Notes under the pieces: generated by a model
The model's database searches: none
What the model was told of the DNA's origin: nothing
What the model saw: only the letters and a program-made list of their open reading frames with translations
Position numbers and translations under genes: made by a program
From: Thiohalocapsa sp.
Lineage (GTDB): Bacteria > Pseudomonadota > Gammaproteobacteria > Chromatiales > Chromatiaceae
Assembly: GCA_021736785.1 (NCBI GenBank)
Contig: JAIPFF010000013.1
Coordinates: 43,936 to 107,935, forward strand
Direction: 5' to 3'
DNA length: 64,000 nucleotides
Part shown: positions 1 through 55,813 of the stretch, in pieces
Position numbering within the stretch: position 1 is the first letter of the stretch
Layout: each line of letters starts with the position of its first letter

Positions 1-2
1 CG

Positions 3-1646: not shown

Positions 1647-2321
1647 ATGCCCGCAAAGAGTCTATCCGTGACCCCATATCCTAATCGCCGACCCGCCGGC
1701 CTTCTGCTGCGGGGCCTTTCGCTCCTGTTTCTGCTGACACTCTCGGCGGCTGCCTCGGCCGACGACGGCGTGGCGCTGGTGAAAGACTATCTGCGCGGCC
1801 TGAATAGCCTGCAGGCGGATTTTCGCCAAATCACGCTCGGCGCTTCCGGCGGCGACATGCTGGAGTCGACCGGCACCTTCTATCTATTGCGTCCGAATCG
1901 CTTCCGCTGGGATTACCGAACGCCCACGGACCAGCAGATCGTCGCCGACGGCAGCCGCATCTATGTCCACGACAAAGAGCTGAGCCAGGTCACGCATCGC
2001 AGCCAGAAGCAGATCCTCGACGGCACGCCGGCGCAGCTGCTGGCCAGCAACGAGCCGCCGGAAAAGTATTTTACGATCAGTAATCTTGATCGCGGCGACG
2101 AGCGCACTTGGGCCGAGCTGATCCCGAAGACGTCCGACACCGATGTCGCAAAGCTTCAGATCGGCTTTGTCGACGGCGAGCTGGACACCTTGGTCATGGA
2201 AGACCGCTTCGGTCAGCTGACGCGCTTCATTTTCACCGACATCGATCGCAACCCGCAGCTGCAGTACGCGATGTTCCGCTTCGAGCGGCCAGCCGGCGCG
2301 GATTTCCTGCAGATCGATTGA
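1647..2321 (+). CDS. lolA: Outer-membrane lipoprotein carrier protein LolA
   Basis: Signal peptide, then LQADFRQ...GTFYLLRPNRFRWDY; directly after ftsK as in many gammaproteobacteria. Confidence 0.93.
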   Translation: MPAKSLSVTPYPNRRPAGLLLRGLSLLFLLTLSAAASADDGVALVKDYLRGLNSLQADFRQITLGASGGDMLESTGTFYLLRPNRFRWDYRTPTDQQIVADGSRIYVHDKELSQVTHRSQKQILDGTPAQLLASNEPPEKYFTISNLDRGDERTWAELIPKTSDTDVAKLQIGFVDGELDTLVMEDRFGQLTRFIFTDIDRNPQLQYAMFRFERPAGADFLQID

Positions 2322-2439
2322 GCCGGCCTGCACATCGGCGACGCAGCTAGGCTGCGCGGGGGCGTGCCGCTGTCGACTTTCGCAAAACGGCGCTCGGCCG
2401 CCGGTTGCGCCGGTAAGCCGACACGGTTCGCAAAACAAC

Positions 2440-2628
2440 TCAGTCGCCCGCCGGGCGGGCCGGCTGACGTGATTCCTTGATGCCTTGCGCCGCACTGCGC
2501 CGGTCTTCCCGCCGGCGGCGCAGGCGGGTGCGCACCTTGATCGCTTCCGTATAGTCCCTGTGCTCCATGTTCGCGTGGCCGCGCTTGCCGCCGGAGCCGC
2601 CCTCGGTGGGTCCTTTGCCGATTGCCAT
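2440..2628 (-). CDS. Small conserved basic protein (GGKRGHxNMEHxDYTE motif)
   Basis: MAIGKGPTEGGSGGKRGHANMEHRDYTEAIKVRTRLRRRRED; strong GGAGG just upstream of the ATG on the minus strand; resembles a small proteobacterial hypothetical family. Confidence 0.6.
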   Translation of the reverse strand: MAIGKGPTEGGSGGKRGHANMEHRDYTEAIKVRTRLRRRREDRRSAAQGIKESRQPARPAGD

Positions 2629-2908
2629 ACATCCCCCTCCAGCGTTGCGATTCGACGTCGAGTTTCCGGCTGACGGCAGCTCTTGTAAAGTGAACCGGGC
2701 CGATCCTTGCGGGACGAGCGGAGCCATCGCTGCTCGCCGGCGGGCTCGGCGCTAAGGGTCAGCCGGCAATTGCCGCAGCCACGCGCCTCCGACACCCGGT
2801 GCCGTCGCCCGCCACCGTGTCGGGGCGCATGACGTTTGCTGCTTGGTCTCACCGATCGATCCGCGTCTCCCGTCGATTTCTCCTGATTCAAGGTTCTTCG
2901 CTGCCGCC

Positions 2909-4336
2909 ATGCCATCGCGCTCGCCACAGTCCGTGTCGCCCCGGCCGCCGCTGGCGCCGCTCGCCGAGCGGATGCGACCGCGCGGCCTCGACGACTTCGT
3001 CGGTCAAAGTCACCTGCTCGGCGAGGGACGGCCGCTGCGGCGTGCGATCGGCGCCGACCGGCCTCATTCGATGATTTTTTGGGGACCGCCGGGCACCGGC
3101 AAGACAACGCTGGCGCGGCTGATCGCGCACAATTCCGACAGCCACTTTCTCAAGCTGTCGGCCGTGCTCGCGGGCGTCAAGGATATCCGGGCCGCGGTGG
3201 ACGAGGCGCGTGCGGTGCGCGAGCGCGAGGGCAGGGGCTGCATCCTGTTCATCGACGAGGTACACCGGTTCAACAAATCCCAGCAGGATGCCTTTTTGCC
3301 GCACGTCGAAGACGGCACCGTCGTGTTTATCGGCGCGACGACGGAAAACCCGTCCTTCGAGCTCAACAACGCGCTGCTGTCGCGGGCCCGGGTGTATGTG
3401 CTGAAGGCGTTGGAGCCGGCGGATCTGGAGCGGGTGATCGATCGCGCGCTGGCCGACAGCGAGCGGGGACTCGGCGAAGCGGGCCTCGGCATCTCGGCGG
3501 ACGCGCGTGCCCTGATCGCCGCGGCCGCCGACGGCGATGCGCGCCGAGCGCTGAACCTGTTGGAAATCGCCGCCGACTTGGCGGTCGAGCCCGGCGCCGA
3601 CGCGGCCGGGCAGCGAGGCGGCGCATCGCAGACGCGCCCGAGCGAGCAGTCGGCCGCGTCGTGCATCGACGCCGACGTCGCGCGGCAAGTCATCGAGGGG
3701 AGTTTCCGGCGCTTCGACAAAGGCGGCGAGGCCTTCTACGACCAGATCTCCGCGCTGCACAAGTCCGTGCGGGGCTCGGCACCCGATGCCGCCTTGTACT
3801 GGCTCGCGCGGATGATCGACGGCGGTTGCGACCCGCTCTACCTCGCCCGGCGCATCGTGCGCATGGCCAGCGAAGATATCGGCAATGCCGACCCCCGTGC
3901 CCTGCAGATGGCCATGGATGCCTGGGACGCACAGCAGCGCCTCGGCAGCCCCGAGGGCGAGCTGGCACTGGCCCAGGCCGTGGTTTATCTGGCCTGCGCG
4001 GCCAAGAGCAATGCTGTTTACACGGCCTGGAAGGCCGCGCTGGCGGATGCCAAGGAAATGGGATCGTTGGACGTTCCGCTGCATCTGCGCAATGCGCCGA
4101 CCCGGCTGATGAAGGAGCTCGGTTACGGCAAGCGCTACCGCTATGCGCACGACGAGCCGGACGGCTATGCCGCCGGGGAGCAGTATTTTCCGGACGGCGT
4201 TGCGCCCCGGCGCTATTACGCGCCGGTCGAGCGCGGCCTCGAAATCCGGATCCGAGAAAAGCTCGAGCGCCTGCGAGCGCTCGATCGGGCCCATGCCGAG
4301 CCCGCCCGGGCGGCGAAGCCGGGTAGCGACCATTGA
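2909..4336 (+). CDS. rarA: Replication-associated recombination protein A (RarA/MgsA AAA ATPase)
   Basis: [61 protein letters not shown]. Confidence 0.95.
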
Positions 4337-4622
4337 GCCCGAAGGCGATGGCTTTACAGCCCTTCGGGCCGATGGCGGAAGCCGCGGCTGCACGCGCTCC
4401 ACTGGCGGGCCGTCGAGCGGCCCTCGATGGTCGACGCCGGGCTCGGAGGTGTAGCGGGCAACCTGCAGGGGCGCGCAACGCGCACTGAAACGCTTTCGGT
4501 CGCATCGGGCGTCGGCGAGCGCGGGATGCGGCCGCTGCGGGAGTCGGCCGGTGCAGTATTCGGTTAGAATTGCGGCGATTGACCGAACAGCGCGGAGCGG
4601 AGCCGTCCTCCACTTGTTGCAG

Positions 4623-4988
4623 ATGTTTGCCATCGCCGGTGGCGGGGCCCTCGGCGCGTTGTCGCGGTTCTGGGTATCGAACGGCGTCTACGGACTTTTC
4701 GGCCGCGATTTCCCCTGGGGCACCCTCGTCGTGAACGTACTGGGCTCGTTCGCGATGGGGTTCTTGTTCGTGCTGCTGCTCGAGCGCAGCATGATGAGCC
4801 CGGAGCTGCGCGCGGCATTGTTGGTGGGTTTTCTCGGCTCGTTCACGACGTTTTCGACCTTCTCGCTGGAGACACTGACGCTGATGCAGCAGGGCGAGAT
4901 GTCGCGCGCATTGCTCAATATCGCTGTCAGCGTGCTGGTCTGCTTACTTGCATGCTGGATCGGCCTCGTTGCCGGGAGGGCATTGTGA
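4623..4988 (+). CDS. crcB: Fluoride exporter CrcB/Fluc
   Basis: GGALGALSRFWV, GTLVVNVLGSFAMGF, GFLGSFTTFSTFSLE. Confidence 0.93.
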   Translation: MFAIAGGGALGALSRFWVSNGVYGLFGRDFPWGTLVVNVLGSFAMGFLFVLLLERSMMSPELRAALLVGFLGSFTTFSTFSLETLTLMQQGEMSRALLNIAVSVLVCLLACWIGLVAGRAL

Positions 4989-5362
4989 GTCAGAAAGACC
5001 GGCCTGCGCCGGAGGATGTGCGGACCGACGGCGAGAGGCCCGTCATCCGGGCGACGATGGTCCGCGTTTACTTGACCGAGTCCGACCACGGGCTGAAGCC
5101 GCTGCTGAAATGCCTGCACGACGAGCTCAAGGTCTGCGGCGCGACGGTGACGCGCGGTGTTGCCGGTTTCGGTGCGTCGGGCGTCGTGCACAGTGCCGGG
5201 CTGGTCGACCTGTCGACGGACTTGCCGCTGGTGCTGGAGTTTTTCGACCGGCCGGAGCGTGCACGCGCGGCCATCGAGCGCATCAAAGACTTCGTCGAGC
5301 CCGGCCATGTCGTCTCCTGGAGCGTCGGCGTCGAGGCCGCCGATCCGCGTTGGTCGTCTTGA
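4985..5362 (+). CDS. DUF190 family protein
   Basis: GTG start overlaps the crcB stop (GTGA at 4985-4988); VRVYLTESD...GASGVVHSAGLVDLSTDLPLVLEFFD is typical of DUF190. Confidence 0.85.
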   Translation: MSQKDRPAPEDVRTDGERPVIRATMVRVYLTESDHGLKPLLKCLHDELKVCGATVTRGVAGFGASGVVHSAGLVDLSTDLPLVLEFFDRPERARAAIERIKDFVEPGHVVSWSVGVEAADPRWSS

Positions 5363-5481
5363 GCCGGCAAGCGCTTTCGTCGCTCCACCAATAACCATCG
5401 GCGCCGATTTGCGCTCGGTCGCGGGCCAAACGGTTCACTCGCAAGCGTCGTGCGGCGTCGAAACCATAGAAGACCAGGTAA

Positions 5482-6777
<1,296 letters not shown>

Positions 6778-7059
6778 GAATGCGACGATCCTCCCGCGGC
6801 AGCCGGCTATCCGGGCGCGAACGCTCCATCGAGTCAGCGCGCCCGCGCGGCTGCCGAAGCGCGCCAACGAGAGAAGGGGTTCGTGAAGCAATATCGATGA
6901 CCGTTCCCGGGCGCTTGCGCGCCGGCCGCGCCGTGCTCCGCGGCGGCCGGATCGTTTGCTGCGAGTAATCGCGCCAGGCAAGGTCTTCCGAGGGGCAAAG
7001 GCCCCGCAGCCCCCGGTGAGGCGATACGCAATCGGAACATAAACCAGAGGAGTCTTCCA

Positions 7060-7410
7060 ATGGACGCAAACCGCTCCGACGAAGCATCGGTCTCCAATGC
7101 ACGGATCATCTACATCTTGTATCTGATCAGCCTCGTCGTCGGCATTACCGGCCTGATCGGCGTGGTGATGGCCTATATCTATCGTGCCGATGCGCCGGAT
7201 TGGATGCAGAGCCACTATGGATTTCTGATCCGCACCTTCTGGATCGGCCTGCTTTACGTGATCGTCGGCGCCTTGCTCACGTCGGTTGCCGTGGGCTTTC
7301 TGATTTTGCTGTTCTGGCTGGTCTGGCTGATTATCCGCTGCGTCAAAGGCCTGCAATACTTGGAGCGCCGCGAGCCGCACCCGGACCCTGAAACCTGGAT
7401 GTTCGGCTGA
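7060..7410 (+). CDS. DUF4870-like small membrane protein
   Basis: Three hydrophobic segments; YILYLISLVVGITGLIGVVMAYI...RCVKGLQYLERREP. Confidence 0.75.
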   Translation: MDANRSDEASVSNARIIYILYLISLVVGITGLIGVVMAYIYRADAPDWMQSHYGFLIRTFWIGLLYVIVGALLTSVAVGFLILLFWLVWLIIRCVKGLQYLERREPHPDPETWMFG

Positions 7411-7433
7411 TCGGCGGGCCGCAGACAGCGGAG

Positions 7434-8474
7434 TCACGACCGAGGGCCGGCTGCGGCGCCCCGACGCCCCTTGGTCAGCGCGCGCGCGAGCTCCGCCAGC
7501 GTCAGCGGCGAAGAGCCCTCCGCCTTATTGTTGACGATCACGAACACCTCGCGCCCGCCGGCAAGCGCCTCGCCGACCATCTCGGCGATGGCCGCGCGGG
7601 TTTCGGAATCCGGCTCGCTCAGCCGGTCGAACGGGGCATATCGATCGCGGGCCTCCGCATAGCCGCGGTTGCGGCGAAGAAGCCAGCGGACCACCAACGG
7701 TCCCTGCGGCGCCGCGCCGTCGGCCGAGCCGGCGAAAAGATCCCGCTGGCGGGCAACGAACGGCAGCCGCGGGTGGGCCGCAAGTCCGGGAAGCGCACCG
7801 CCATGGCGCAGCGCCGCCGCCAGATCCGGGGTCAGCAACTCCGGGTCGCGGAGCTCGACCGCATACACGGGACCCTTCGGCAGCCGCCGTAAGAAACGGT
7901 AGAGGTCCTCCGCAAAGCGACGCGGCGCGTCGGTGATCGCACGACCGAGGGGCGGAAACTGGAACAACAACACGCCGGCACCATCGCCGAGCCCCTCGAC
8001 GAATGGCGCCGCGGCCGCGGCGATGGCGGTCTCGGGATCCATAAAGGCCGGGTTTTCGCTCGGGCCGCGACCGCGGCCGTCGCGCCTGAATCGGTCGGTC
8101 ACCAGGGCCGGGGCTTTGACCAAGAAACGGAAATCCTCGGGCACCTGCGAGGCGTAGCCCGCAAGGCGGCGGCGATCCAAGGGCGCATAGAACCCGCTAT
8201 CCACGCCCACGGTGCGCAGCAGCGGATGCGCCGAGTAGGCGCGCAATCCTTCGCGGGACAGGCTTTGCTTCGGCGCACCTGCCGCATAGACAAGACCGGC
8301 CCAGCCGGGAAAGGACCAGGACGACGTACCCAGTCGCAGGCCGAGCGGGAGAGCCGCTGCCAGCGCCGCTAATTCGGGAGCCACCGGCGCCGGCTCGACG
8401 GTCGCCGACCTCGCGCGCTCATCGTCCGGCCGGTCGTCTGGCCGGTCGTCGTCGATCAAGCTGAGCTGCTTCAT
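7434..8474 (-). CDS. DUF72 domain-containing protein (YecE-like)
   Basis: LRLGTSSWSFPGWAGLVY, LVKAPALVTDRF, VLLFQFPP, VYAVELRDPELLTP, FVIVNNKAEGSSPLT. Confidence 0.9.
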   Translation of the reverse strand: MKQLSLIDDDRPDDRPDDERARSATVEPAPVAPELAALAAALPLGLRLGTSSWSFPGWAGLVYAAGAPKQSLSREGLRAYSAHPLLRTVGVDSGFYAPLDRRRLAGYASQVPEDFRFLVKAPALVTDRFRRDGRGRGPSENPAFMDPETAIAAAAAPFVEGLGDGAGVLLFQFPPLGRAITDAPRRFAEDLYRFLRRLPKGPVYAVELRDPELLTPDLAAALRHGGALPGLAAHPRLPFVARQRDLFAGSADGAAPQGPLVVRWLLRRNRGYAEARDRYAPFDRLSEPDSETRAAIAEMVGEALAGGREVFVIVNNKAEGSSPLTLAELARALTKGRRGAAAGPRS

Positions 8475-8549
8475 GGTCCCTCGTGCCGGGTTTCGCGGCG
8501 CCCGGAGCGCCGGTTCTGAGTTTGTTCCCGTGCTCGGCGCGGCGTCATT

Positions 8550-9974
8550 TTATTGCCGCGCCAACAGGAGCAGCTGTCCGTCGCGCAGGACGCGGGCGCT
8601 GTAGATGGCGCCCGCGCCGCGAATCGCGCGCCGCAGGTCCGTCAGGGATCCGACCGTCTGGCGATTCATCTCCAGGATCAGGTCGCCCTCCCGCAGACCG
8701 GACAGCCAGGCCGGGCTGCCCGGGCGCAGCGGGCCGACCAGAACCAGCCGGCGGCGCCCGTGCGGCGACTGCCGCAGAACCTCGCCGATTAGGGCCCCTT
8801 CGAGCACCGGATCGAGCGCTTCGCCCTGCTGGAAATCGGCGTAGGGGTCGTCGACTGTGCCGCGCAGACGTTTGCGCTCGCCGTTGCGCAGAATCTCCAG
8901 TTGCAGCTCGCTGCCGGCGCGAAGCAGCCCGATCACGGTGCGCAAGTCCGCCGAGTTCCCGATCGGGCGGCCATTGACGGCGGTCACGACATCACCCGGC
9001 TTCAGCCCGGCGCGCTCGGCGGCGGAGTCCGGATCCACCGAAGAGATCACGGCGCCCCGGAAGAGCTCGATGTCCAGCGCCGAGGACAGTTCCGGCGTCA
9101 GATCCTGTGCCGCGGCGCCGAACAGGCCGCGGCGCACCGAGCCATGCTCAAGCAGCTGGTCCACGACGGTACGCACCATATTGATCGGGATCGCGAAGCC
9201 GATGCCCACGTTGCCGCCGCCCGGCGCGAGGATGGCCGTATTGATGCCGACGAGCTCGCCGTTGAGATTCACCAACGGACCGCCGGAGTTGCCGGGATTG
9301 ATGGACGCGTCGGTCTGGATGAAGCTCTCGTAGCCTTCGATACCGAGCCCGCTGCGCCCGAGCGCGCTGACGATGCCCGAGGTAACGGTCTGGGCCAGTC
9401 CGAAGGGGCTGCCGATGGCGACGACGAAGTCGCCGACCTGCAGGGCATCGGAGTCCGCCAGCGCGACGGCGGTGAGGTCGTCGGCGGCTACCTGCAGCAC
9501 GGCGATATCGGTCTCGGCATCGGAGCCGATCAAACGGGCGTCGACGCGGCGCCCGTCGTGCAGCGTCACACGGATACGATCCGCGTCGGCGAGGACGTGG
9601 TGATTGGTGACCACGAGGCCGCGCGCGGCGTCGACGACGACGCCGGAGCCGAGACTCTGATTCTCTCGCTGCGGGGGTCGGCCCGGAATGTCGAAAAAGC
9701 GCCGAAAGAACGGATCGCGCAGCAACGGATGTTCGTCGGCGGCAATCCGAGTCACCGTGGAGATGTTGACGACGCCGGGCATCACGCGCTTGAGCATCGG
9801 CGCGAGGCTGGGCAACGGCTGACCATCCACCCGAGCCGGCAGTGCGGCGGACGCCGCGGCAGGCAGCGCCGAGAGTCCGATGAGCAGCGCGATCAACAGA
9901 GCGATCGACGCTGCCGGGACGGCGCGTGATCGACCGCGCCGGTGGGCTGGTCTGCGCAAGGGGGCGGGGGTCAT
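8550..9974 (-). CDS. DegP/DegQ-type periplasmic serine endoprotease with two PDZ domains
   Basis: TNHHVL, DAETDIAVLQ, INPGNSGGPLVNLNGELVGINTAI triad motifs, PDZ segments (ERAGLKPGDVV; GSPAWLSGLREGDLI). Confidence 0.95.
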   Translation of the reverse strand: MTPAPLRRPAHRRGRSRAVPAASIALLIALLIGLSALPAAASAALPARVDGQPLPSLAPMLKRVMPGVVNISTVTRIAADEHPLLRDPFFRRFFDIPGRPPQRENQSLGSGVVVDAARGLVVTNHHVLADADRIRVTLHDGRRVDARLIGSDAETDIAVLQVAADDLTAVALADSDALQVGDFVVAIGSPFGLAQTVTSGIVSALGRSGLGIEGYESFIQTDASINPGNSGGPLVNLNGELVGINTAILAPGGGNVGIGFAIPINMVRTVVDQLLEHGSVRRGLFGAAAQDLTPELSSALDIELFRGAVISSVDPDSAAERAGLKPGDVVTAVNGRPIGNSADLRTVIGLLRAGSELQLEILRNGERKRLRGTVDDPYADFQQGEALDPVLEGALIGEVLRQSPHGRRRLVLVGPLRPGSPAWLSGLREGDLILEMNRQTVGSLTDLRRAIRGAGAIYSARVLRDGQLLLLARQ

Positions 9975-10132
9975 GCTGAGGATACGGGCATGTCGGAACA
10001 GGTCGGGCCGAGTCCGATCGAGTCGATTCGGGCCAGGCTCGGCAGCGCTTTCGCCGGCCGCACCGGACGATGCGCGGGTGCCCCCGGATGCGCCCGGTCA
10101 TGCCGGTTTGGGCAAGGACACCGGCGCATGGC

Positions 10133-10597
10133 TCAGCTGCCTGCATTGCCGTCGATCGCCGGCCGGTTGCCGGAGCGAATCGTGATCTTGCGAGGCTTCA
10201 TCGACTCCGGTACCTCGCGCACCAAGTCGATGTGCAGCAAGCCGTTTTCGAGCCTTGCATCGACGATTTTCACATAGTCCGCCAGCTGAAAGCGACGCTC
10301 GAAGCTGCGCGTTGCGATCCCCCGGTGCAGGAAGCGCCGATGTGCGTCCTGCGGCTCTTCCTTTCGGGCACCGCTGACGGTGAGGAGGTTCTGGGCTGAC
10401 TCGAGACTGAGATCTTCGCCGGTAAAGCCGGCGACAGCCATCGTGATGAGATAGCGATCCTCGCCGCGCAATTCGACGTTGTAAGGCGGATAGCCGCCGG
10501 AATCCGCGCGGTATGCACTTTCCAACGAGGAGGCCAGCCGATCGAAGCCGATCATCGAGCGAAACAACGGAGAGAAGTCGATCGTTGTCATGGGCAT
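10133..10597 (-). CDS. Hsp20 small heat-shock protein (IbpA-like)
   Basis: YPPYNVELRGEDRYLITMAVAGF, FLHRGIATRSFERRFQLADYVKI, LENGLLHIDLVREVPES. Confidence 0.94.
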   Translation of the reverse strand: MPMTTIDFSPLFRSMIGFDRLASSLESAYRADSGGYPPYNVELRGEDRYLITMAVAGFTGEDLSLESAQNLLTVSGARKEEPQDAHRRFLHRGIATRSFERRFQLADYVKIVDARLENGLLHIDLVREVPESMKPRKITIRSGNRPAIDGNAGS

Positions 10598-11029
10598 GTC
10601 CTTTGACCGTCGGAGCCGAAACGAACCGTCATTGAAAACGCCGCGGTCGCCGTTAGAGCGATGGCGCTCGCCGGGCGAAGTTAAAGCGGCGCGGGCGCGT
10701 TTTCAACCGACGCCGGAATCGCGCCGGTATAGCGTCGGCAGGGGGCCCGCACGAGCGAACTATACCGGAGACGCAACGCGGTTATAAAAGCGGCGGTGAC
10801 GATCTCCGGCATCGGCCGGGCATGCGCGCAGAGCGCGGCCGGCGTGCACCGCTCGCTTGCCTCGGCGCATACCCGGATCGAGCGCTGCACCCGGCTTGGC
10901 GGGCACGCGGTACACGGCGCACGGCGAAGGCGAAATCTCTATACTCGGTGACCGTGTCCGAGCGCGGCTGCGGCTGAAAGTATCCGCCCGCGACCGGGCG
11001 CTATCCCCGCAATACGACAGGAGCGATCC

Positions 11030-11683
11030 ATGAACCAAACCTACAAGCCGCTGGCCGCGGCGAGCGTTGCAGCGCTGCTGTACACCGGCACCGCTCAGGC
11101 CTTCGAATTAAAAGACATTTTCAATCCCACCACATGGTTCGGCGTGCCGGAGCAGCAGAGCCAGCCCGCGCCTGCGCAGCAGGCTGGCTATGAAGTGACT
11201 CCGCCGGTGGGAACGCAGCCTGCGCCTGCCCCAACTCCGGCCTCGACTCCGGCACCGGCACCGACTCCGGCAGCCGCCCCGCAATCGACTGCCGCCGCGC
11301 AGCCGGCCGCTGCATCACAGCCCGCACCGGCTGCGCCCGTTGCACAACCCGTCGCAAAGCCTGCCGCGCAGCAGGGCGAAGAAACGGCAGCTGCCGAGCC
11401 GGCCCCGGCGAGCGCCGACACGGACACCGCGCAAACCGGTCAGTCGATGCAGCCGCCGCGCTACCCGATGCCCCGCGGCTATGGCGTCGCTCCCGGCTAC
11501 GGTGTTGCCCCGGGTTATTACGGGATGCCGGCCTACGGCCCGCCGATGGGATACGGCATGCCGGTTTACCGTGCGCCGGTCTATGGCCCGCCCCCGGGCT
11601 ACGGCATGCCGCCCGCTTTCGGTATGCACCCCGCTTACGCGGCCCCGCAATCGGGTGACGGCAGCGACGCCGGCACGCAATAG
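11030..11683 (+). CDS. Exported low-complexity Pro/Ala then Gly/Tyr/Met/Pro-rich protein
   Basis: Signal peptide ending AQA-FELKDIFNPTTWFG, then a PAPTPAS...AAAP linker and a YGMP/YGPP/GYG-rich tail. Confidence 0.75.
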   Translation: MNQTYKPLAAASVAALLYTGTAQAFELKDIFNPTTWFGVPEQQSQPAPAQQAGYEVTPPVGTQPAPAPTPASTPAPAPTPAAAPQSTAAAQPAAASQPAPAAPVAQPVAKPAAQQGEETAAAEPAPASADTDTAQTGQSMQPPRYPMPRGYGVAPGYGVAPGYYGMPAYGPPMGYGMPVYRAPVYGPPPGYGMPPAFGMHPAYAAPQSGDGSDAGTQ

Positions 11684-11685
11684 TC

Positions 11686-11755
11686 GGACAGCCCGTGTTC
11701 GGCTGTCCCGGCCGAACATCGGTTCGGAAAGCGCCCGCTGGCCAACAGCGGGCGC
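11686..11755 (+). terminator. Two consecutive hairpins after the Pro/Ala-rich gene, terminator-like
   Basis: GGACAGCC-N7-GGCTGTCC (11686-11708) and GCGCCCGCTG-gccaa-CAGCGGGCGC (11731-11755); weak U-tract only. Confidence 0.5.
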
Positions 11756-11879
11756 CGTGTGTTTCGGTACAGGTTCCATCTGCTGGGCACGGCGCGACCT
11801 GGCCCTCCTCGAAACGCCGAATTTCGCCTCAACCTTTTCCGTGCTTATTCAATTCCGTCCGCAAGAGGTATCTGACCGT

Positions 11880-12236
11880 ATGGAGTTCCGACCCGTCATC
11901 AAGACCGCCATCCCGAAGCATCGGTATCAGATCGGGGATTTCTCGGCCTCGGTGCTGGGCGATATAGAGAGCGGCGACCAGCGCCGATACCGCTACATCA
12001 TGGCGATGGTGCCGATGGGCAGCGCCGAGCCGACGCTCTATGTGTGCTGCGAGCATGCGCCGCCGGCGCGTGCGTCCGAGGGGCGCTACGACATCCGCGT
12101 GGTCAACGACGCAATGGGCGAGATCGTCGACAGCGCCGACCATTGGGGCGATCTCGAGATCTTCTCGGAGCAGGCCATCGATTTGGCCAAGCAGATCCTC
12201 GGCCTGCGCAACGAGCAGGTGGTGAAGTTATCGTGA
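11880..12236 (+). CDS. Conserved hypothetical protein
   Basis: MEFRPVIKTAIPKHRYQIGDFSASVLGDIES...; compact globular composition. Confidence 0.65.
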   Translation: MEFRPVIKTAIPKHRYQIGDFSASVLGDIESGDQRRYRYIMAMVPMGSAEPTLYVCCEHAPPARASEGRYDIRVVNDAMGEIVDSADHWGDLEIFSEQAIDLAKQILGLRNEQVVKLS

Positions 12237-12251
12237 CGGCGCTCGGCGTCG

Positions 12252-14678
12252 TCAGCCACGCGCCAACAGCAACGTGTCGAGTCGCTCGCGGTGTTGAGCA
12301 ACGCGCCGGTCGACCATCGCCGCTTCCGACGCCAAAGCGTCGTGTGATTGCCGTAGCGCGTCGTGCTCCGCCTGCAGCGCGAGCAGTTCCGTGTGACGCA
12401 GGTCGCGGCGGCCTGCCAGCTCCTTGTGATCGCGCTCCAAGACCTTCAGCTTGCGCTCCGCGTTGCGCCGCGTGATCGCGGCCGGGCTATCACTACCGAA
12501 CAGGCGCAAGGCCCGCGGAGCGACTTCGGCAGCCTCGTCGATGCGCGATTGCAGTACCTCCATGCGCTCCTTTTTCTCCCGCAGCCGCTCGTCGAGCTGG
12601 CGCAGGTCGTGCTCGACTTGATTGATCTTGCCCGTGCGCTCGGCAATGCGCATGCGCAGATCGCCGAGGGCAGCGTGCTGCGTCGCTTGCTGGGCCTGCT
12701 CTTCGGCGAGCAACTCGCGGGTCTTGTCGATGCGAAGGCGTCTTGATTCGCGATCCTGCCGCCGCGTCATCTCGTCCCCGGTTTGCCGCAGCTCGAGCTC
12801 GCGCAGCCGGCGCTGATCATCGAGCGCCATCTGACGGAGCCGCGTCTCTTCGCGCGCGGAGCGGCGCGCATCCTCGTAGGCACTGCGCCGCTGGCGCAAC
12901 TCCTCTTCCTCCACCGCGCGCTGCTGCTCCCAGGCCTCGCTTTTTCGGGCCAGCTCCGTGTCCAGCCGCTCGCGCTCGGCGGCGTACTCGTGCTCGAGCC
13001 GTTGCAGGGCGAGGTCGTGCGCTCGCTTGGCCTCGGCGCGCTGCTGCTCTAGGCGCTCGACCTCGAGACGCGTCTCGCCGTCGAGGCGCTTGCGCTTTTC
13101 CTCCAATTGCAGATCCAACTCGCGGCGGCGGGCGTCGAGCTCCGCTTCCCGGTGCTTGCGCTCCAGCACCAGGCGCTCGTCGATGTCCCGGCGCTGGCGC
13201 TGCAGCAGCTCCAGCTCGTAGTCGCGGTCGGAGAGAAGCCGTTGCACCCGGGCTTCGGCGGAAACGACGGTCTTGATCTGTTCGAAGTAGGCGTCGGGGT
13301 CGCGCTCGTACAATTCCCAAAGCCGGGCGAACTCGACCGGCGACAGGCGCTTGTGCGGCTCGTCGTGATCGTCGAATCCTGGTATGTGGCCGAGGCCGCC
13401 GGCCAAGTACTTCGCGTATTGCAGCTGTGTCGTCTCGCTGTAGTAAGCGTGAACGGAAGAAGGCTCGAACAGCTTCAGTGCGATCAACGCGAAGAACAGA
13501 ATGCCCAGCGCCGCTTGGGCAAAGCCCTCGACGGTCTCGAAATGGGGGACGCCCACTTCACCGGGGCTTTCGCGCAGCGCGCTCAGGGCCTTCGAGCGTG
13601 CGGCGAACGTCAGGCGCGGGGGCGACGCCGGCGGCTGCTGCGCGATGACCTCGTCGGTGAGCCGCTCGATCAGCCGCCGTTGCTCGCTGCGCGTCTCCTG
13701 CAGCGCGTCGGAGCGCTGTTCGAGGCGTTGCTGTTGCTCGTCGATGGCCGCTTCCACATCGGCCAGTCGGGCGTCGCGCTCGGCTTGTATCTCCGCCAGC
13801 GTGGCCTGCAGCAGGTTGGCGCGCTCGTCCCACTTGCGCGCTTCCGGCCCGTAGCCCTCGGGGCGGCCTTCGCGGCCGAGCACCTCGTCGCCGACACGGG
13901 CGCGGGCCGCGGCCAGGTCGCGGGTCAGCACCTCGATCTCGGGTCTGTACTCGGCCTCGATGCGGGCGCGTCGCTCCTGCTCGCCCTGCAGCGTCTCCGA
14001 CAGCCGCTCGATCTCCTGCTCAAGGGAGGCGATGCCGGCCGCGAGTCCGGCGTCGATTTGCGCCGCGCGGGCCTGGACCTGCTCGCGGATGGTGGCATCG
14101 CGTTGCTTGAAATACTGCTCGACTTGCGCCTCGTGATAGCCGGCGATGTCATCGGCGCGAATGAGCTTCTCGATGAAGGGGGCGGTGACATACAGAGACA
14201 CGGCGACGATGCCGACGCGCGCGACGATGCCGAGTGTCCAGCGCAGAACCGGCCCGATGCCGGACGCGCCGCGGGCGTCGCTGCCGCGCAGGGACGGGCG
14301 CTCGGACATGATCAGCGACGAGTCCACGATCCAGACGATCGAGAACATCAGCAAGAACATGAACGCGGCCACCGGCAGCGCGAGCCAGCGGCTCGCCTCC
14401 GGCACGATGGAACTGCCGACCGCGGCCCAGACGAAACCCTCGATGCTCGCCATCAGCATGATGACGATCCAGGCCGACCAGAGCCAGACCGAGACCGCCG
14501 GCGTGATCAGGCGCCGCCCGTAGGGACGCAGCGTGAAATAGTCGCGCAGACGCAGGCCGCGGTCCGTGTCGTCCCCGTCGGCGTGCGGGTCGGCGCCGGA
14601 TCCGGAACCGGAGGCAGCGTCCGAGCCGCCGGCCTCTTTCCGGCGTCGGCGGCGGACGTTTCGCAGAAAGTTCAACAT
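12252..14678 (-). CDS. Large membrane-anchored coiled-coil protein, DUF4407-like
   Basis: N-terminal TM segments (WLWSAWIVIMLMASIEGFVWAAVG), TM WTLGIVARVGIVAVSLYVTAPFIEKLI, coiled coil, another TM (FAQAALGILFFALIALKLFEP), then about 380 aa of charged coiled coil. Confidence 0.7.
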   Translation of the reverse strand: MLNFLRNVRRRRRKEAGGSDAASGSGSGADPHADGDDTDRGLRLRDYFTLRPYGRRLITPAVSVWLWSAWIVIMLMASIEGFVWAAVGSSIVPEASRWLALPVAAFMFLLMFSIVWIVDSSLIMSERPSLRGSDARGASGIGPVLRWTLGIVARVGIVAVSLYVTAPFIEKLIRADDIAGYHEAQVEQYFKQRDATIREQVQARAAQIDAGLAAGIASLEQEIERLSETLQGEQERRARIEAEYRPEIEVLTRDLAAARARVGDEVLGREGRPEGYGPEARKWDERANLLQATLAEIQAERDARLADVEAAIDEQQQRLEQRSDALQETRSEQRRLIERLTDEVIAQQPPASPPRLTFAARSKALSALRESPGEVGVPHFETVEGFAQAALGILFFALIALKLFEPSSVHAYYSETTQLQYAKYLAGGLGHIPGFDDHDEPHKRLSPVEFARLWELYERDPDAYFEQIKTVVSAEARVQRLLSDRDYELELLQRQRRDIDERLVLERKHREAELDARRRELDLQLEEKRKRLDGETRLEVERLEQQRAEAKRAHDLALQRLEHEYAAERERLDTELARKSEAWEQQRAVEEEELRQRRSAYEDARRSAREETRLRQMALDDQRRLRELELRQTGDEMTRRQDRESRRLRIDKTRELLAEEQAQQATQHAALGDLRMRIAERTGKINQVEHDLRQLDERLREKKERMEVLQSRIDEAAEVAPRALRLFGSDSPAAITRRNAERKLKVLERDHKELAGRRDLRHTELLALQAEHDALRQSHDALASEAAMVDRRVAQHRERLDTLLLARG

Positions 14679-14694
14679 GGAAGTAAACAGGGGC

Positions 14695-15567
14695 TCACAC
14701 CATCTTCCTGAGGGCATACTCCAAGATGCCCTCGGCGCCGGCGGCCCGCAATCGGGGAATCAAATCGCGCACGCAGCCCGCATCGACGATGGTCTCGACG
14801 GCCAGCCATTGGCGGTCGTAAAGGTGGCTGACGGTCGGCGCGTGGAGACTCGGCAACAACTCGACGACAGCGTCGACCCGCTCCGCCGGCACATTGCACT
14901 TGAGCGCGACCTTGTTGCGCGCCGCCAAGGCAGCCTGCAGCATCAGCGCGATCTGCTCGATGCGGGCGCGCCGGTCGGGGTCGCGCATCGCGGCGCGGTT
15001 GGCGATCAGTCGGGTGTCGGTGATCAGCAGGTCTTCGACAATGCGAAGGCCGTGCGCGCGAATAGTGCTGCCGGTCTCGGTGATCTCGACGACGGCGTCC
15101 ACCAGCCCGTCGACGGCCTTCGCTTCGGTCGCGCCCCAGGAGAACTCCACGTCTGCCTCGATGCCCCGCTCGGCGAGCCAGCGGCGGGTGAACCCGACCA
15201 GTTCGGTGGCGATTTTGCAGCCGCCGAGATCCGATGCGGCGCGGATCGGCGAAGATTCGGGGACCACGAGCACCCAGCGGCTCGGGTGGTTCGACGCTTT
15301 CGAATAGGTCAGCGTGCAGATCTGCTCGACTTCGGCATCGGTCTCGAGAATCCAGTCGAGTCCGGTCAATCCCAGATCCAGCGTTCCGCGCTGGACGTAG
15401 CGCGCCATCTCTTGCGCGCGGACCAGCGAGCAGCGGATGTTCGGGTCATCGATATCCGGGTAGTAGTTTCTGGAATGCGGCGTAATGCGCCAGCCTGCCT
15501 GCTCGAACAGATGGATGGTCGCGTCCTGCAGGCTGCCTTTGGGAATGCCGAGCTTGAGCGGATGCAT
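14695..15567 (-). CDS. hisG: ATP phosphoribosyltransferase (long form)
   Basis: LKLGIPKGSLQDATIHLFEQAGW, DLGLTGLDWI, C-terminal regulatory ACT-like part. Confidence 0.95.
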   Translation of the reverse strand: MHPLKLGIPKGSLQDATIHLFEQAGWRITPHSRNYYPDIDDPNIRCSLVRAQEMARYVQRGTLDLGLTGLDWILETDAEVEQICTLTYSKASNHPSRWVLVVPESSPIRAASDLGGCKIATELVGFTRRWLAERGIEADVEFSWGATEAKAVDGLVDAVVEITETGSTIRAHGLRIVEDLLITDTRLIANRAAMRDPDRRARIEQIALMLQAALAARNKVALKCNVPAERVDAVVELLPSLHAPTVSHLYDRQWLAVETIVDAGCVRDLIPRLRAAGAEGILEYALRKMV

Positions 15568-15649
15568 AGGGGATACCGGCGCTGTGATCGTGCTGAGGGC
15601 CGATTATCCCGTAAAACTACGAGGGTGACTAAGTTTGCGCTGCTCTCGG

Positions 15650-18151
15650 TCACTGCGCCGGCGGCGTTGGGTCCGAGATCGCAACACCAGGCGGCTGCCA
15701 AAGGAGCGCGCCCGAGAGCATACCGGCCGCCGCCTCGGCGCTGCAGGGCCGCGCGAACAAATACCCTTGCCCCAAATCGCACCCGATGGCGTGCAACGCC
15801 GCCGCGGTTTCTTCGCGCTCGATTCCTTCGGCCACGACGGCCAAACCCAGACTATGGCCGAGGGTGACGATGGTGGCGATGATATTGCGCCCGCTCGCCT
15901 GTTCTTGCATGTCGTGGACGAAAGAACGGTCGATTTTGAGCGTGTCGAGCGGGAACTGGTGCAGGAAGCTCAACGAGGAATAGCCGGTGCCGAAATCGTC
16001 CATGCTGAGCCGGATGCCGAGCGAGCGCAGCGATTCCAGCGTTGCGCGTGCCTGCGCCGGCGCATCCATGATGGTGCTCTCGGTAATTTCCAGGCAGAGA
16101 TTACGCGGATTGCAACCGGTGCGGTGCAGAATGTCGCCTAACAGGTCGCAAAAGCCGGGATCGTCGAGCTGGCAGCGCGAGATGTTGGCGCTGACGCGCA
16201 GGTCGCTGCGATGGGGGAATTGCTCGATCCAGCCGGCCGCCTGCAGACAGGTGTGCTCGATCACCCAAGCGCCGAGCGGCAGGATGAGTCTGCTCTCCTC
16301 CGCCAGCGCAATGAAGCGGTCCGGGGACAGCAGACCCTCCTCCGGATGTTGCCAGCGTACCAGCGCCTCGAAGCCTTCGACGCGTCCCGTGGACATGTTG
16401 ACCAGCGGCTGGAACAGCAGCCGCAGCTCGTTCTCGGCGATGGCGCGCCGAAGCGCGTTTTCCAACCGCAGCCGATCGATGGCGTGGCGGTGCATGCTCG
16501 GATGGAAGCGGCGGCAGCCGCCGAATGCAGCCGCCTTCGCCTCGTACATCGCGAGCTCGGCGTCGCGCAGCATGTCCTCGCCGCGGGCGTTGCCGTCGCC
16601 GTGCACCACGAAGCCGATGCTCGCGCTCGGATGCAGTTCGACATCGTCGATGATCAGCGGCTCCTTCAACGACTTCAGCACCCGCTGAGACACATAGAGG
16701 GCGTCCTCTTCGCGCGAGATGGGGTTCAGCAGGACTGCGAACTCGTCGCCGCCGAGGCGCGCGATGTCGTCGCCCGGGCGCAGACATGTGATCAGTCGGC
16801 GCGCGACCGATTCCAGCAGCAGGTTGCCCGCCTGATAACCGAGGCTGTCGTTGACGCGCTTGAACCGGTCGAGATCCATGACCAGCAACGCAAAGCACTT
16901 CTCCGTTTCACGTGCGGCTTGCGCCAACGCCTGGTCGAGCCGGTCGACCAAAAGGGTGCGGGTAGCGAGACCGGTCAGGCTGTCGTAAAGGGCTTCTTGC
17001 CGGGCGCGTGTTTCCACCAGATGATGCTGCGTGACATCGTTCATGACGATAATCAGCCGCAGCCCGTTGTCGATCGTGGCGGTGCCGAACTGGACGTCAA
17101 GCCAGATCGGCTCGCCGCCGGCGCTCGAGAGCTGCCATTGGGCGCGATGCGTCACGCCGGACTGGATACGGCGCAGCAGCAGCCGGAACGAGCTCGGCTC
17201 ATCGAGCGGGTAGCCGGGGCGAAGATCGGTGATATCCATGCCTATCAGCGTGCCGTTATCGCGCTGCAGAATGCTTGCGGATGCCGGGTTGGCCTCCAGG
17301 ATCCTGCGCGTTGCGATATCGACGATCAGGATGCCCTCGCTGATGCTGTCGACGATGCTGCGATAGCGGGTCTCGGAAGCGCGCAGCGTCGCATTGGCCG
17401 ATTTGACGCGCATCAGCTGCACGAAGAGATCAAGCGCGGCCGAGAACGGAGCGCGGTCGGCGTCCGCGTCGTCGGGCGTCTCCGGCAGACGCGGCTTCGG
17501 CCGTGCGGCGCCGAGCAGCGTCAGGTCGTCGCGAACGGCTTCCAGCACGTACCTTAGCTCGGCGTCGGCCGGCTGCGGGATGATGCGCACGACGGCACCG
17601 TTTGCACCGTCCGGCGACACCTGCCAGTCGTCGCCGTCTTGCGTTCCCGGCGATTGCGTCCCGCGATAGGCCGGGCCCGGTGCCGACGCGTCTTTGGATT
17701 CGGCCGATGTCCACTCTTCGATCCGCGGCCGCGGGGGGTGCCCGAGATGCGGCGGCGGCTCGGCGGCCGATTCCTGTTCCTGCAGCGGCGCGTCCGCGGC
17801 GTCGCCGGATGCCGAATCCAAGGCAGCCGCGAGCAGCGCCTCGGTGTGCTTGCCGACGGCGGCGAGCAGGCGCCGCCGGCCCCCGGGCTCGGTCTTCATG
17901 ATGGCAGCCGAGTCGAGTTGCAGCCGATCGACCAAAATGCGCAGGAAGCGCCTCGCGGCGGTCTTGGCCGGCACTTCGCTTGCGGTCAGCGTGTGGATTT
18001 CGCGCGCCAGCGCCGCCGTCATCCGCTGCCGATGCAGTTCTGCCTTTCCCTCGAGCAGTTGCTGCTGCAGCCTCAGAACTCGCCCGCCGACGCGGTTGCA
18101 TTGCCGGCGCAGGTGCGCCAATTCATCGCGGGCGTCGGCCTCTTTGTTCAC
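15650..18151 (-). CDS. GAF-like/PAS/GGDEF/EAL cyclic-di-GMP protein
   Basis: GTG start overlaps the FIST gene stop; RLGGDEFAVLL, EALVRWQHPEEGLLSPDRFIALAEE, LEITEST, MDDFGTGYSSLSFLHQFPLDTLKIDRSFV. Confidence 0.93.
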   Translation of the reverse strand: MNKEADARDELAHLRRQCNRVGGRVLRLQQQLLEGKAELHRQRMTAALAREIHTLTASEVPAKTAARRFLRILVDRLQLDSAAIMKTEPGGRRRLLAAVGKHTEALLAAALDSASGDAADAPLQEQESAAEPPPHLGHPPRPRIEEWTSAESKDASAPGPAYRGTQSPGTQDGDDWQVSPDGANGAVVRIIPQPADAELRYVLEAVRDDLTLLGAARPKPRLPETPDDADADRAPFSAALDLFVQLMRVKSANATLRASETRYRSIVDSISEGILIVDIATRRILEANPASASILQRDNGTLIGMDITDLRPGYPLDEPSSFRLLLRRIQSGVTHRAQWQLSSAGGEPIWLDVQFGTATIDNGLRLIIVMNDVTQHHLVETRARQEALYDSLTGLATRTLLVDRLDQALAQAARETEKCFALLVMDLDRFKRVNDSLGYQAGNLLLESVARRLITCLRPGDDIARLGGDEFAVLLNPISREEDALYVSQRVLKSLKEPLIIDDVELHPSASIGFVVHGDGNARGEDMLRDAELAMYEAKAAAFGGCRRFHPSMHRHAIDRLRLENALRRAIAENELRLLFQPLVNMSTGRVEGFEALVRWQHPEEGLLSPDRFIALAEESRLILPLGAWVIEHTCLQAAGWIEQFPHRSDLRVSANISRCQLDDPGFCDLLGDILHRTGCNPRNLCLEITESTIMDAPAQARATLESLRSLGIRLSMDDFGTGYSSLSFLHQFPLDTLKIDRSFVHDMQEQASGRNIIATIVTLGHSLGLAVVAEGIEREETAAALHAIGCDLGQGYLFARPCSAEAAAGMLSGALLWQPPGVAISDPTPPAQ

Positions 18152-24896: not shown

Positions 24897-25060
24897 GTCC
24901 CTCCGGGTATCGCTGTTGCAAGCCTCAGCTGCAAATTGGATGCCATGGGAAAGCCCGGTGTTTGCGGGCCTCGGGTGGGCGGTGACTGTGCGTCACGGGG
25001 CGGCGGCGCACTGCGCTGGTGCAGGCCGGGACGGAGGCCGCCACCGGCCCCGAGCGCCAG

Positions 25061-25093
25061 CCGTCAGACGTCAGCCGTCAGCCGTCAGCCGTC
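25061..25093. repeat. 7-bp tandem repeat (CCGTCAG)x4.7
   Basis: ccgtcag acgtcag ccgtcag ccgtcag ccgtc read directly; overlaps the stop codon of the 25085-25990 gene. Confidence 0.9.
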
Positions 25094-51041: not shown

Positions 51042-51131
51042 CATTCTCCAAGGCTGAGGCATTCTCCAAGGCTGAGGCATTCTCCAAGGCTGAGGCGTTC
51101 TCAAAGGCTGAGGCATTCTCAAACGCTTGCC
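51042..51131. repeat. 18-bp tandem minisatellite, about 4.5 copies
   Basis: cattctccaaggctgagg at 51042, 51060, 51078; cgttctcaaaggctgagg at 51096; degenerate copy at 51114. Confidence 0.93.
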
Positions 51132-51592
51132 CGCATGAAACTGGCGGAGCGTCCTGCCACGCACGGGAACCGCTGGATATTTCGGCGCGTCCCTTGCGGG
51201 TGCCGGCTCGTTGATCATGCCGGCGGACAATGGACAAAGTCGGGGAAGGGGCTTGTTCCGGAGGTTCGGAATTGTTTCCGGAGTCCGGAGGCTCGGATCG
51301 TTTGCGCGATCCGGTAGGTCACGACGCTTCGTCGGCTGCCATCTTGTGGGTACACGGTGTATTCTGCTGCAATTGTGCGACGTATGGGGAATGTCCGTAT
51401 CCCCCCGGCGCGTGCTGCCGTATAGAGGGTCCCCCCATTTCAATTTGCGGTAATGCCGCCACAATGTGGCGGCGGCCCAACGTGTTGCGAGCGCTGGGGG
51501 ACCGCATAGCGAGCCGGCGATGCTCCCGCCGCAAAGTCCGCCAGACTCCGGCTCGCCTAAGCTGCTCCAAAGCGTCGATAAGGAACAACAAC

Positions 51593-53074
51593 ATGCCGTC
51601 CCTGGCAACCATCCTGGAACTACTGCTGACCACCGGGCTGATTATTCTGGCCGTGATGTCGCTGCATCTGACGACACTGAGCGTCGCTCGTCTGTTACTT
51701 GCGCGGCGTCCGCTGCCCGATCGACTCGCCGAAGGTTTAATCGAGCATCGGTCCGACGACGAGGCGCTGCCGGATGTCCTGATCCAGATTCCCCTCTACA
51801 ACGAGGGCGATCTGATCGAGCGGATTCTGACATCCGTGACGGCGCTCGACTGGCCGGCGCGGCGTCTTCATATTCAAGTGCTCGACGACAGCACCGACGG
51901 CATCTCCCTGGCCGCGAGTCGCGCGGCGGTGGATGCAGTGGCCCGGCAAGGCTGGCAGGTCACGCTACAGCACCGCGCCCAGCGCACCGCCTTCAAGGCC
52001 GGAGCGCTGGCGGAGGGGCTGGCGCGGTGCGACGCTCCCTACGTGGCCATCTTCGACGTCGACTTTCTGCCGCCGCCGGACTTTTTGCGCCGGACCGTCG
52101 GCGTCTTGCTGGCGGACGAGCGCATGGCCTACGTGCAGACCCGTTGGCTGCACGCCAACCGCGAGCACAACCTGCTCACGCGCGCCCAAGGCAGGCTGCT
52201 CGACGGGCACTTTCTGGTGGAGCAGGAATCGCGGCTGCGCCTGGGACTACCAGTGCCCTTCAACGGTACCGGCGGCGTCTGGCGCCGCGCGGCCATCGAC
52301 GACGCGGGCGGCTGGCATGGCGATACCTTGACCGAAGATCTGGATCTCAGTCTGCGCGCACGTCTTCGGGGCTGGCGCTCGGGCTATTTGGCCGACCTCG
52401 GCGTTCCCGGCATCCTGCCCGAGTCTCCGCGCGCATGGCGCATCCAGCAGTTTCGATGGACCAAGGGCTTCATCGAGTGTCTGGTCAAGCTGGCGCCGGA
52501 CATTTGGCGCAGCGACCGACTGCCGCGCTGGCAGAAGTTGCTGATTACGCTGCAACTCACGCAGCCGCTGGCGTTCCTGGTGGGCTTCGCCTCGATCCTT
52601 TGCGGTCTGCCCTTCATTGCCGGGACGTTTGCGGCAGGGCCGGTGCTGTCCACCGTCGCGCTCGGTACCGCGAGTATCGGTTTGCTGGGGCCGATTTCCG
52701 TCCTGACCATCGGCGCTTGGGGTGCACCGCCGCTGCGTATCCTGCGCGAGGGAGCGATTGCGCTGTTCCTGACCAGCGGTTTGATGCTGTCCAATACCCG
52801 CGCCGCGCTGGAGGCGCTGGTCGGGCGCCGCAGTGACTTCATCCGAACGCCGAAGCGCACCGAGCTGCCGGTGGCCGGCGCGGGTACGCGCCCCTGCCGC
52901 TGCGGATTGCTCGAGCTCGCCGCCGGCGGCGGTTTGTTCACCTTCGTGCTACTGGAGCATCCGCTGGCGCTGCTGCCGATGGCGCTGGCCATCGGCGGCC
53001 TGCTCGGCTTCGGCCTGATGCAGATCGACGAGCAGGCGAGCAGCGCACCGCAAATCACCTCCCGCGCCGAATAG
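51593..53074 (+). CDS. Membrane GT2 glycosyltransferase (cellulose/mannan synthase-like)
   Basis: VLIQIPLYNEGDLIERIL, VLDDSTD, FDVDFLPPPDFL, FNGTGGVWRRAAIDDAGGWHGDTLTEDLDLSLR, QQFRWTKGF. Confidence 0.92.
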   Translation: MPSLATILELLLTTGLIILAVMSLHLTTLSVARLLLARRPLPDRLAEGLIEHRSDDEALPDVLIQIPLYNEGDLIERILTSVTALDWPARRLHIQVLDDSTDGISLAASRAAVDAVARQGWQVTLQHRAQRTAFKAGALAEGLARCDAPYVAIFDVDFLPPPDFLRRTVGVLLADERMAYVQTRWLHANREHNLLTRAQGRLLDGHFLVEQESRLRLGLPVPFNGTGGVWRRAAIDDAGGWHGDTLTEDLDLSLRARLRGWRSGYLADLGVPGILPESPRAWRIQQFRWTKGFIECLVKLAPDIWRSDRLPRWQKLLITLQLTQPLAFLVGFASILCGLPFIAGTFAAGPVLSTVALGTASIGLLGPISVLTIGAWGAPPLRILREGAIALFLTSGLMLSNTRAALEALVGRRSDFIRTPKRTELPVAGAGTRPCRCGLLELAAGGGLFTFVLLEHPLALLPMALAIGGLLGFGLMQIDEQASSAPQITSRAE

Positions 53075-53100
53075 CCCGGAGCCGCCCTGCGAATCCGCGT

Positions 53101-54190
53101 CCGTGCTGAAGCCCGGACTCCCCGGAGCGCGGCTTGCTTCCGAGGAGTCTGCGGCTCGCCGCGTATGTGGGTTGCCGGGGTAGGCGCGAATCCTCGTCCG
53201 TGCTGAAGCCCGGACTCCCCGGAGCGGGGCTTGTTTCCGAGGAGTCTGCGGCTCGCCGCGGACGAGGCTTGCGGGCGGCGATGCGGGCCGGGAGTGATCC
53301 TTACGGGCAGCCGCCCACGCTGACGGCGATCTTTGCCGGCGGCGATCCTGGCTGACGGCAATCCGTAACGGCGCCGATCTTTGCCGGCGGCGATCCCGGC
53401 TGTCGGCAATCCGTAACGGCGCCGATCTTTGCCGGCGGCGATCCCGGCTGGCGGCGATCCGTAACGGCGCCGATCTTTGCCGGCGGCGATCCCGGCTGGC
53501 GGCGATCCGCAAAGGCGGCGATCCGTACCGGCTGCGCGGCATCACCCGCGTTCCCGCTTACGTCCGTGCTGAAGCCCGGACTCCCCGGAGCGCGGCTTGC
53601 CTCCGGGGAGTCTGCGGCTCGCCGCGGACGAGGCTTGCGGGCAGCGATGCGGGCGGTGAGTGATCCTTACCGGCAGCCGCCCACGCTGACGGCGATCTTC
53701 GCCGGCGGCGATCCTGGCTGGCGGCCATCCGCAAAAGCGGCGATCCGTAACCACTGTGCGGCATCACCCGCGTTCCCGCTTACGTCCGTGCTGAAGCCCG
53801 GACTCCCCGGAGCGCGGCTTGCCTCCGGGGAGTCTGCGGCTCGCCGCGGACGAGGCTTGCGGGCAGCGATGCGGGCCGGGAGTGATCCTTACGGGCAGCC
53901 GCCCACGCTGACGGCGATCTTTGCCGGCGGCGATCCTGGCTGTCGGCAATCCGTAACGGCGCCGATCTTTGCCGGCGGCGATCCTGGCTGACGGCCATCC
54001 GCAAAAGCGGCGATCCGTACCGGCTGCGCGGCATCACCCGCGTTCCCGCTTACGTCCGTGCTGAAGCCCGGACTCCCCGGAGCGCGGCCTGACTCCGAGG
54101 AGTCTGCGGCTCGCCGCTTATGTGGGTTGCCGGGGTAGGCGCGAATCCTCGTCCGTGCTGAAGCCCGGACTCCCCAGAGCGCGGCATGGG
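53101..54190. repeat. Nested intergenic repeat array (six copies of a REP-like hairpin unit plus 48-bp tandem repeats)
   Basis: Unit CCGTGCTGAAGCCCGGACTCCCCGGAGCGCGGC begins at 53101, 53198, 53564, 53786, 54056, 54153; 48-bp units GCGCCGATCTTTGCCGGCGGCGATCC... from 53323. Confidence 0.95.
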
Positions 54191-54218
54191 TGGTAGGTGG
54201 GCTTGGCGGCTTGCCGGG

Positions 54219-55766
<1,548 letters not shown>

Positions 55767-55813
55767 CGGTGCTTCTCCGTCGGATACATCGGTTGGCATG
55801 GCGCGCGCGGGGA

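Follow-up and report, generated by a model that had tools for sequence, protein, structure and literature searches.

The window analysed here (the whole stretch of DNA, 64,000 nucleotides) belongs to a Thiohalocapsa-like Chromatiaceae genome of 5.2 Mb in 96 contigs, and its zwf gene is nearest to that of Thiohalocapsa halophila (89%). A convergent gap at 53075-54218 separates a GT2 glycosyltransferase ORF from zwf (Table 1). The initial annotation had described this gap as almost filled by a nested repeat array, and the array does take up about 95% of it, leaving about 55 bp of non-array sequence and lying near the 3' ends of both genes (27 and 46 bp). An exact string search placed the 23-mer CCGTGCTGAAGCCCGGACTCCCC at 53101, 53198, 53564, 53786, 54056 and 54153, the same six positions as annotated before, and the reported spacings (97, 366, 222, 270, and 97 bp) were correct on re-measurement; the true start of the repeat unit is the CGT at 53098, 3 bp to the left of the start used previously, giving units of 97, 366, 222, 270, and 97 bp followed by a truncated sixth copy.

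Table 1. Positions of the genes and array components at the GT2/zwf locus (window coordinates)
Feature	Position	Strand	Details
GT2 glycosyltransferase ORF (left convergent gene; start codon uncertain)	51230..53074	+	Pfam Glyco_trans_2_3, E 7e-24
REP heterodimer 1	53098..53163		REP-A minus 53101-53121, head-to-head with REP-B variant plus, GGAGT at 53144
Short tail-to-tail spacer, first 97-bp form	53164..53194		
REP heterodimer 2	53195..53264		REP-A minus 53198-53218, REP-B plus 53241-53261
Long tail-to-tail spacer	53265..53560		four 48-bp repeats (53323-53514)
REP heterodimer 3	53561..53630		REP-A minus 53564-53584, REP-B plus 53607-53627
Long tail-to-tail spacer	53631..53782		one 48-bp unit (53689-53736)
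REP heterodimer 4	53783..53852		REP-A minus 53786-53806, REP-B plus 53829-53849
Long tail-to-tail spacer	53853..54052		two 48-bp units (53911-54006)
REP heterodimer 5	54053..54118		REP-A minus 54056-54076, REP-B variant plus, GGAGT at 54099
Short tail-to-tail spacer, second 97-bp form	54119..54149		
Truncated sixth copy	54150..54186		REP-A minus 54153-54173 and half of the head-to-head spacer
zwf, glucose-6-phosphate dehydrogenase (right convergent gene)	54219..55799	-	Pfam G6PD_C, E 3e-117

Alignment of the three long spacers, with which TRF agreed, located the 48-bp blocks (each made of three diverged 16-mers) from 53323 (n = 4), 53689 (n = 1), and 53911 (n = 2) onwards. The three inner spacers are one shared long spacer that differs in length by whole 48-bp blocks only, so the rule of 174 + 48n for the long periods (n = 4, 1, 2) holds exactly. 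Both outer periods are the same-length 97-bp short form, as had been claimed, and have the ending TATGTGGGTTGCCGGGGTAGGCGCGAATCCTCGT in common, with one difference immediately 5' of it. Dimers 3 and 4 are identical across 67 nt, which is consistent with the 222-bp module having been recently duplicated. Elsewhere in the window, the heptamer CAGCCGT is repeated about five times at 25058-25093, close to where a possible gene ends, and its 7-base units could cause a frame shift.

Each array unit was found to be a head-to-head heterodimer of two imperfect palindromes, both tagged with GGAGT, namely REP-A on the minus strand (GGAGT-CCGGGCT-TC-AGCACGG-ACG) and REP-B on the plus strand (GGAGT-CTGCGGC-TC-GCCGCGG-ACG), with the GGAG heads facing each other across 22 bp. 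The complementary ends of the head-to-head gap form a perfect 12-bp stem, GACTCCCCGGAG/CTCCGGGGAGTC, in dimers 3 and 4, and this inner dimer folds as a single hairpin with -56.2 kcal/mol on the plus strand (z -6.5 vs. shuffles) and -48.8 kcal/mol on the minus strand (z -5.3); the folding of the outermost 97-bp unit is unexceptional (z -1.6). No promoter was found in the array by a promoter scan, a terminator scan returned one weak hairpin within it with no good U-tract, and Rfam gave only a chance-level match to P33 (18.5 bits vs. a cut-off of 45).

The same elements are dispersed throughout the genome. A similarity search returned 136 places resembling the array, and pattern searches of the genome and of fetched stretches, on which all the genome-wide counts rest, gave 187 exact copies of REP-A and 117 of REP-B (reversed-pattern controls: 0). 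In the sampled stretches of this genome, 366 GGAGT-headed elements of six palindrome families (A-F) were counted, far above chance, as backwards-read patterns yielded 0. The GGAG(T) head is present in all six families, and their stems show compensating two-sided changes at positions 4 (G-C/C-G), 6 (C-G/G-C), and 7 (T-A/C-G). Elements alternate in direction, with 140 head-to-head neighbours (mostly 7-13 bp apart, nearly always from two different families, mostly A with B, C, E, or F) and 148 tail-to-tail neighbours (mostly 27-38 bp apart), and range from lone dimers up to arrays of about 14 units, with a usual period of 80-86 bp. The array in the window follows this alternation with wider gaps, its head-to-head distance being 22 bp vs. 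the usual 7-13 bp; given the genome-wide period, the 97-bp form (tail-to-tail spacer of about 33 bp) departs little from the norm, and it is the long forms that stand out. The long spacer with its 48-bp minisatellite occurs in this genome only at GT2/zwf, and neither the 48-bp unit (p 0.085) nor the whole long spacer (p 0.3) was significantly similar to ordinary tail-to-tail spacers. The minisatellite is a local addition to the array. The initial reading of two repeat levels (a hairpin-bearing module, and 48-bp units whose number varies independently) is retained, but it had missed the genome-wide REP family. An 18-bp tandem repeat in the window (CATTCTCCAAGGCTGAGG, 4.4 copies at 51042-51120, between an RND-type efflux pump ORF and GT2) has CCAAGGCTGA in common with the D-type REP.

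According to rough gene calling, 38 of 43 REP clusters do not overlap predicted ORFs, and the clusters lie between convergent (6), unidirectional (12), or divergent (7) genes with no enrichment of convergent sites. The distribution of REP-A is uneven, as 72 of the 187 copies fall within the first 20 kb of contig C11, and a head-and-stem scan of its positions 1-17800 (L034 in this genome, G000) counted approximately 12 REP arrays with 144 elements, few being present in the remainder of C11. Contigs C11, C24, C30, C47, C52, C63, C65, C67, C74, C78, and C91 start or end in REP arrays. With about 15 clusters at contig ends, the real copy number must be higher, and the assembly was probably broken by the arrays, which would be longer than they appear in it. 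A pattern search of 145 other Chromatiaceae genomes, including five from the same genus, found no REP-A.

Five Y1-type transposases are encoded in the genome, one of which, on contig C74 (the L057 ORF), scored above the cut-off of the NCBIfam model for REP-associated tyrosine transposases (RAYTs; NF047646, 102 vs. 80 bits) and aligned with E. coli TnpAREP (4er8, E 4e-15). REP dimers lie directly on both sides of this gene. They pair A with F (GGAGTGCGTGGCTCCGCCGCGC), and those of the window pair A with B, so the link between the C74 RAYT and the window rests on the common A element and the common head, and mobilisation of REP-B by this enzyme would be an extrapolation. GGAGT palindromes of families A-F were not seen near the other four Y1 transposases (C58, C22, C93, and C16). 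Of 210 genomes from the order, 5 contained the C74-type clade; nine other members of the genus did not, and the clade and REP-A were both missing from the searched same-genus genomes. No RAYT relatives were found in viral contigs.

Taken by its features, the array is a known kind of DNA, a BIME-type REP array in a GGAG-tagged variant. As in REPs in the broad sense, the elements are short imperfect palindromes (20-50 nt) in many copies, mainly intergenic, with a conserved tetranucleotide (GGAG) 5' of the palindrome; the alternating orientation and tandem repetition are those of BIMEs, and the RAYT gene flanked on both sides by its REPs at L057 (A/F dimers) has the layout of a REPtron. Strictly, the units are not part of a larger known insertion sequence, which the initial annotation had named as grounds for abandoning its reading, but repeats of this kind, non-autonomous and transposase-associated, do form a known class. 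A close likeness is to the y/z2 BIME-2/TnpAREP system of E. coli, in which two types of imperfect palindromes also alternate as heterodimers in tandem intergenic clusters and the RAYT is flanked by the same REP architecture; here, however, the tag is GGAG instead of GTAG, the stems are shorter (7-8 bp), the guide-reading segment of the RAYT is altered, and a long unique spacer carries a minisatellite. REPINs (Bertels and Rainey 2011, PMC3116915) are likewise dispersed inverted REP doublets that can form one hairpin as a whole, but mostly long tandem arrays of heterodimers occur here rather than single doublets, with the doublet as the putative moving unit. The RAYTs of TnpA-Y1 subclass 2.8 (PMC6006769) share the HYH motif and W[YH] at the guide-reading site, while differing, when compared by motif, in motif details (DxHYH, NYL.NNP) and host group; their published REPs carry GT[AG]G tags (PMC6006769). 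Membership in the GTAG superfamily (tag GTAG or GTGG) was rejected because the tag is GGAG, and a CRISPR array was rejected on the spacers, which are very unequal in length, mutually related, and internally repeated.

We are confident in reading the array as REP heterodimers clustered in tandem in the manner of BIME-2, which a RAYT would have spread and slippage or unequal recombination enlarged, and which bear a spacer insert with a 48-bp block that would expand on its own. The dedicated transposase of the REP family, which probably spread it, would recognise single-stranded GGAG-tagged hairpins and disperse the dimers, one of which would have landed beyond the 3' ends of GT2 and zwf. The cluster could then have grown via slippage or unequal recombination, the inner units would have gained an insert in their tail-to-tail spacer, and the 48-bp block within this insert would have expanded independently by slippage. 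A rival account, in which hairpins merely promote replication slippage and a plain minisatellite cluster arose with no transposase ever involved, agrees with the confinement of the 48-bp repeat and its spacer to this locus and with the fact that tandem growth can do without a transposase. It appears improbable, as REP dimers flank the RAYT on both sides and keep the same tag, orientation, and spacing across dozens of distinct intergenic sites, a dispersal for which slippage alone is insufficient. An assembly artefact may also be considered, against which speak the position of the array in the interior of contig C25 and the arrays of the same dimers at many other places in the genome.

The elements could instead be CGTC-tagged REPs seen in the opposite direction (CGTCC...GGACTCC), and this class reportedly has no dedicated transposase. 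A and B do start with CGTCC on the opposite strand, and both the published CGTC REPs (Di Nocera 2013, PMC3733652) and the elements here form head-to-head dimers, mostly so in the published class. This, too, is unlikely, since families C, D, E, and F have GGAGT and lack the CGTC end, GGAG is the constant part beside related RAYTs, the stems of A and B begin with C-G and not, as described almost always for CGTC REPs, with A-T, and the GGAGT elements flank a RAYT, which described CGTC REPs do not. The CGTC superfamily as defined (8-9 bp stem, A-T start, no transposase) was accordingly rejected as a class, the CGTC end occurring in some families only and a RAYT being present. That the array is a repetitive protein-coding gene is hardly conceivable: 48 and 174 are divisible by 3 and long mechanical ORFs cross parts of the array, but no frame survives the 97-bp period, and the ORFs, which overlap the 3' ends of genes, are mechanical products rich in arginine that codon-position composition does not mark as genes.

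The BIME-type cluster between two 3' ends may also have a role in RNA. REPs between convergent ORFs are known to sit close to both 3' ends (PMC3733652), and the inner-dimer hairpin, predicted to be stable in RNA from either side, could shield the two convergent transcripts at their 3' ends or set where they end. Selection might then keep the array as a functional bidirectional GT2/zwf transcript end, a proposal compatible with the REP origin, to which the short distances to both genes and the highly stable hairpins on both strands lend weight. We regard it as rather doubtful, however, because clusters elsewhere also lie between divergent and unidirectional genes, a convincing terminator U-tract is missing, and zwf manages without the array in the stretches read of its relatives, where other genes lie beyond it. 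As for GT2, a scan of GTDB genomes found no relative, and the gene was missing from the far side of zwf in those stretches; GT2 may have arrived recently.

The guide tag can be compared with the segment of the RAYT that reads it. The residues at the GTAG contact of E. coli TnpAREP include Q95, residue 100, and R104 (PMC8266576), and W94, E100, and H101 are discussed in PMC6006769. The C74 RAYT has Y at both 95 and 101 in a HMMER alignment to this protein, and the guide-reading segment of its clade is W-x-N-YWDY[CS]PR vs. the canonical WQRRFWEH, with WWNYWDYCPR in three relatives (G002, G127, and G933) and WRNYWDYSPR plus WCNYWDYCPR in a fourth (G384). Automated calling found GGAG-headed flanking palindromes at 4 clade loci and GT[AG]G-headed ones at 10 loci of the canonical WQRRFWEH type, with no crossing (Fisher p 0.001), and GGAG-headed REPs were recognised by reading at two further clade loci (G002, with short stems, and G933). 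Hence all six clade RAYTs examined adjoin GGAG-tagged REPs, and canonical RAYTs with callable REPs have GT[AG]G in 10/10 cases; as the compared loci share kinship and are phylogenetically non-independent, and 17 canonical RAYTs had no callable REPs, this correlation is a lead and not proof. One GGAGT palindrome occurs in 139 copies in G127, which has a clade RAYT, and in 30 copies in its congener G142, compared with 11 copies here; the RAYT of G142 itself is of the WENYWDTCIR form. Two relatives with W[EQ]NYWDTCIR (L105 and L106) lack GGAG REPs, L106 having GTAG-headed palindromes downstream, which limits the correlation to the DY[CS]PR form. The two clade RAYTs of G384 (L099 on C69 and L102 on C82) reside in one genome of another family, and each adjoins its own GGAG-headed REP family. 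A different HYH RAYT (WYNYWETALT; L066, G059:C11) has palindromes headed GGAGTGCGCCGG nearby and is possibly a further GGAG system. The open-access RAYT papers searched do not name GGAG as a tag.

From these sequence comparisons, we slightly favour the view that a rare RAYT clade, with Q95 and H101 replaced, exchanged GT[AG]G for GGAG as its REP guide, and that the array in the window is one amplification product of this system in one species. For genome assembly, the family matters in that about 15 contig ends fall in REP arrays. The arrays of this genome are seen at many stages, and the one at GT2/zwf has a spacer that would grow independently. How RAYTs choose their REPs, and what role the tetranucleotide guide has, has so far been tested on GTAG systems, and attempts to alter the cleavage site via the guide failed in the Ec and Sm systems (PMC8266576). 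A natural clade with both a different guide and altered guide-reading residues offers a direct comparison; if the switch is real, enzyme and guide would have changed in a matched way in nature within a family of single-strand transposases.
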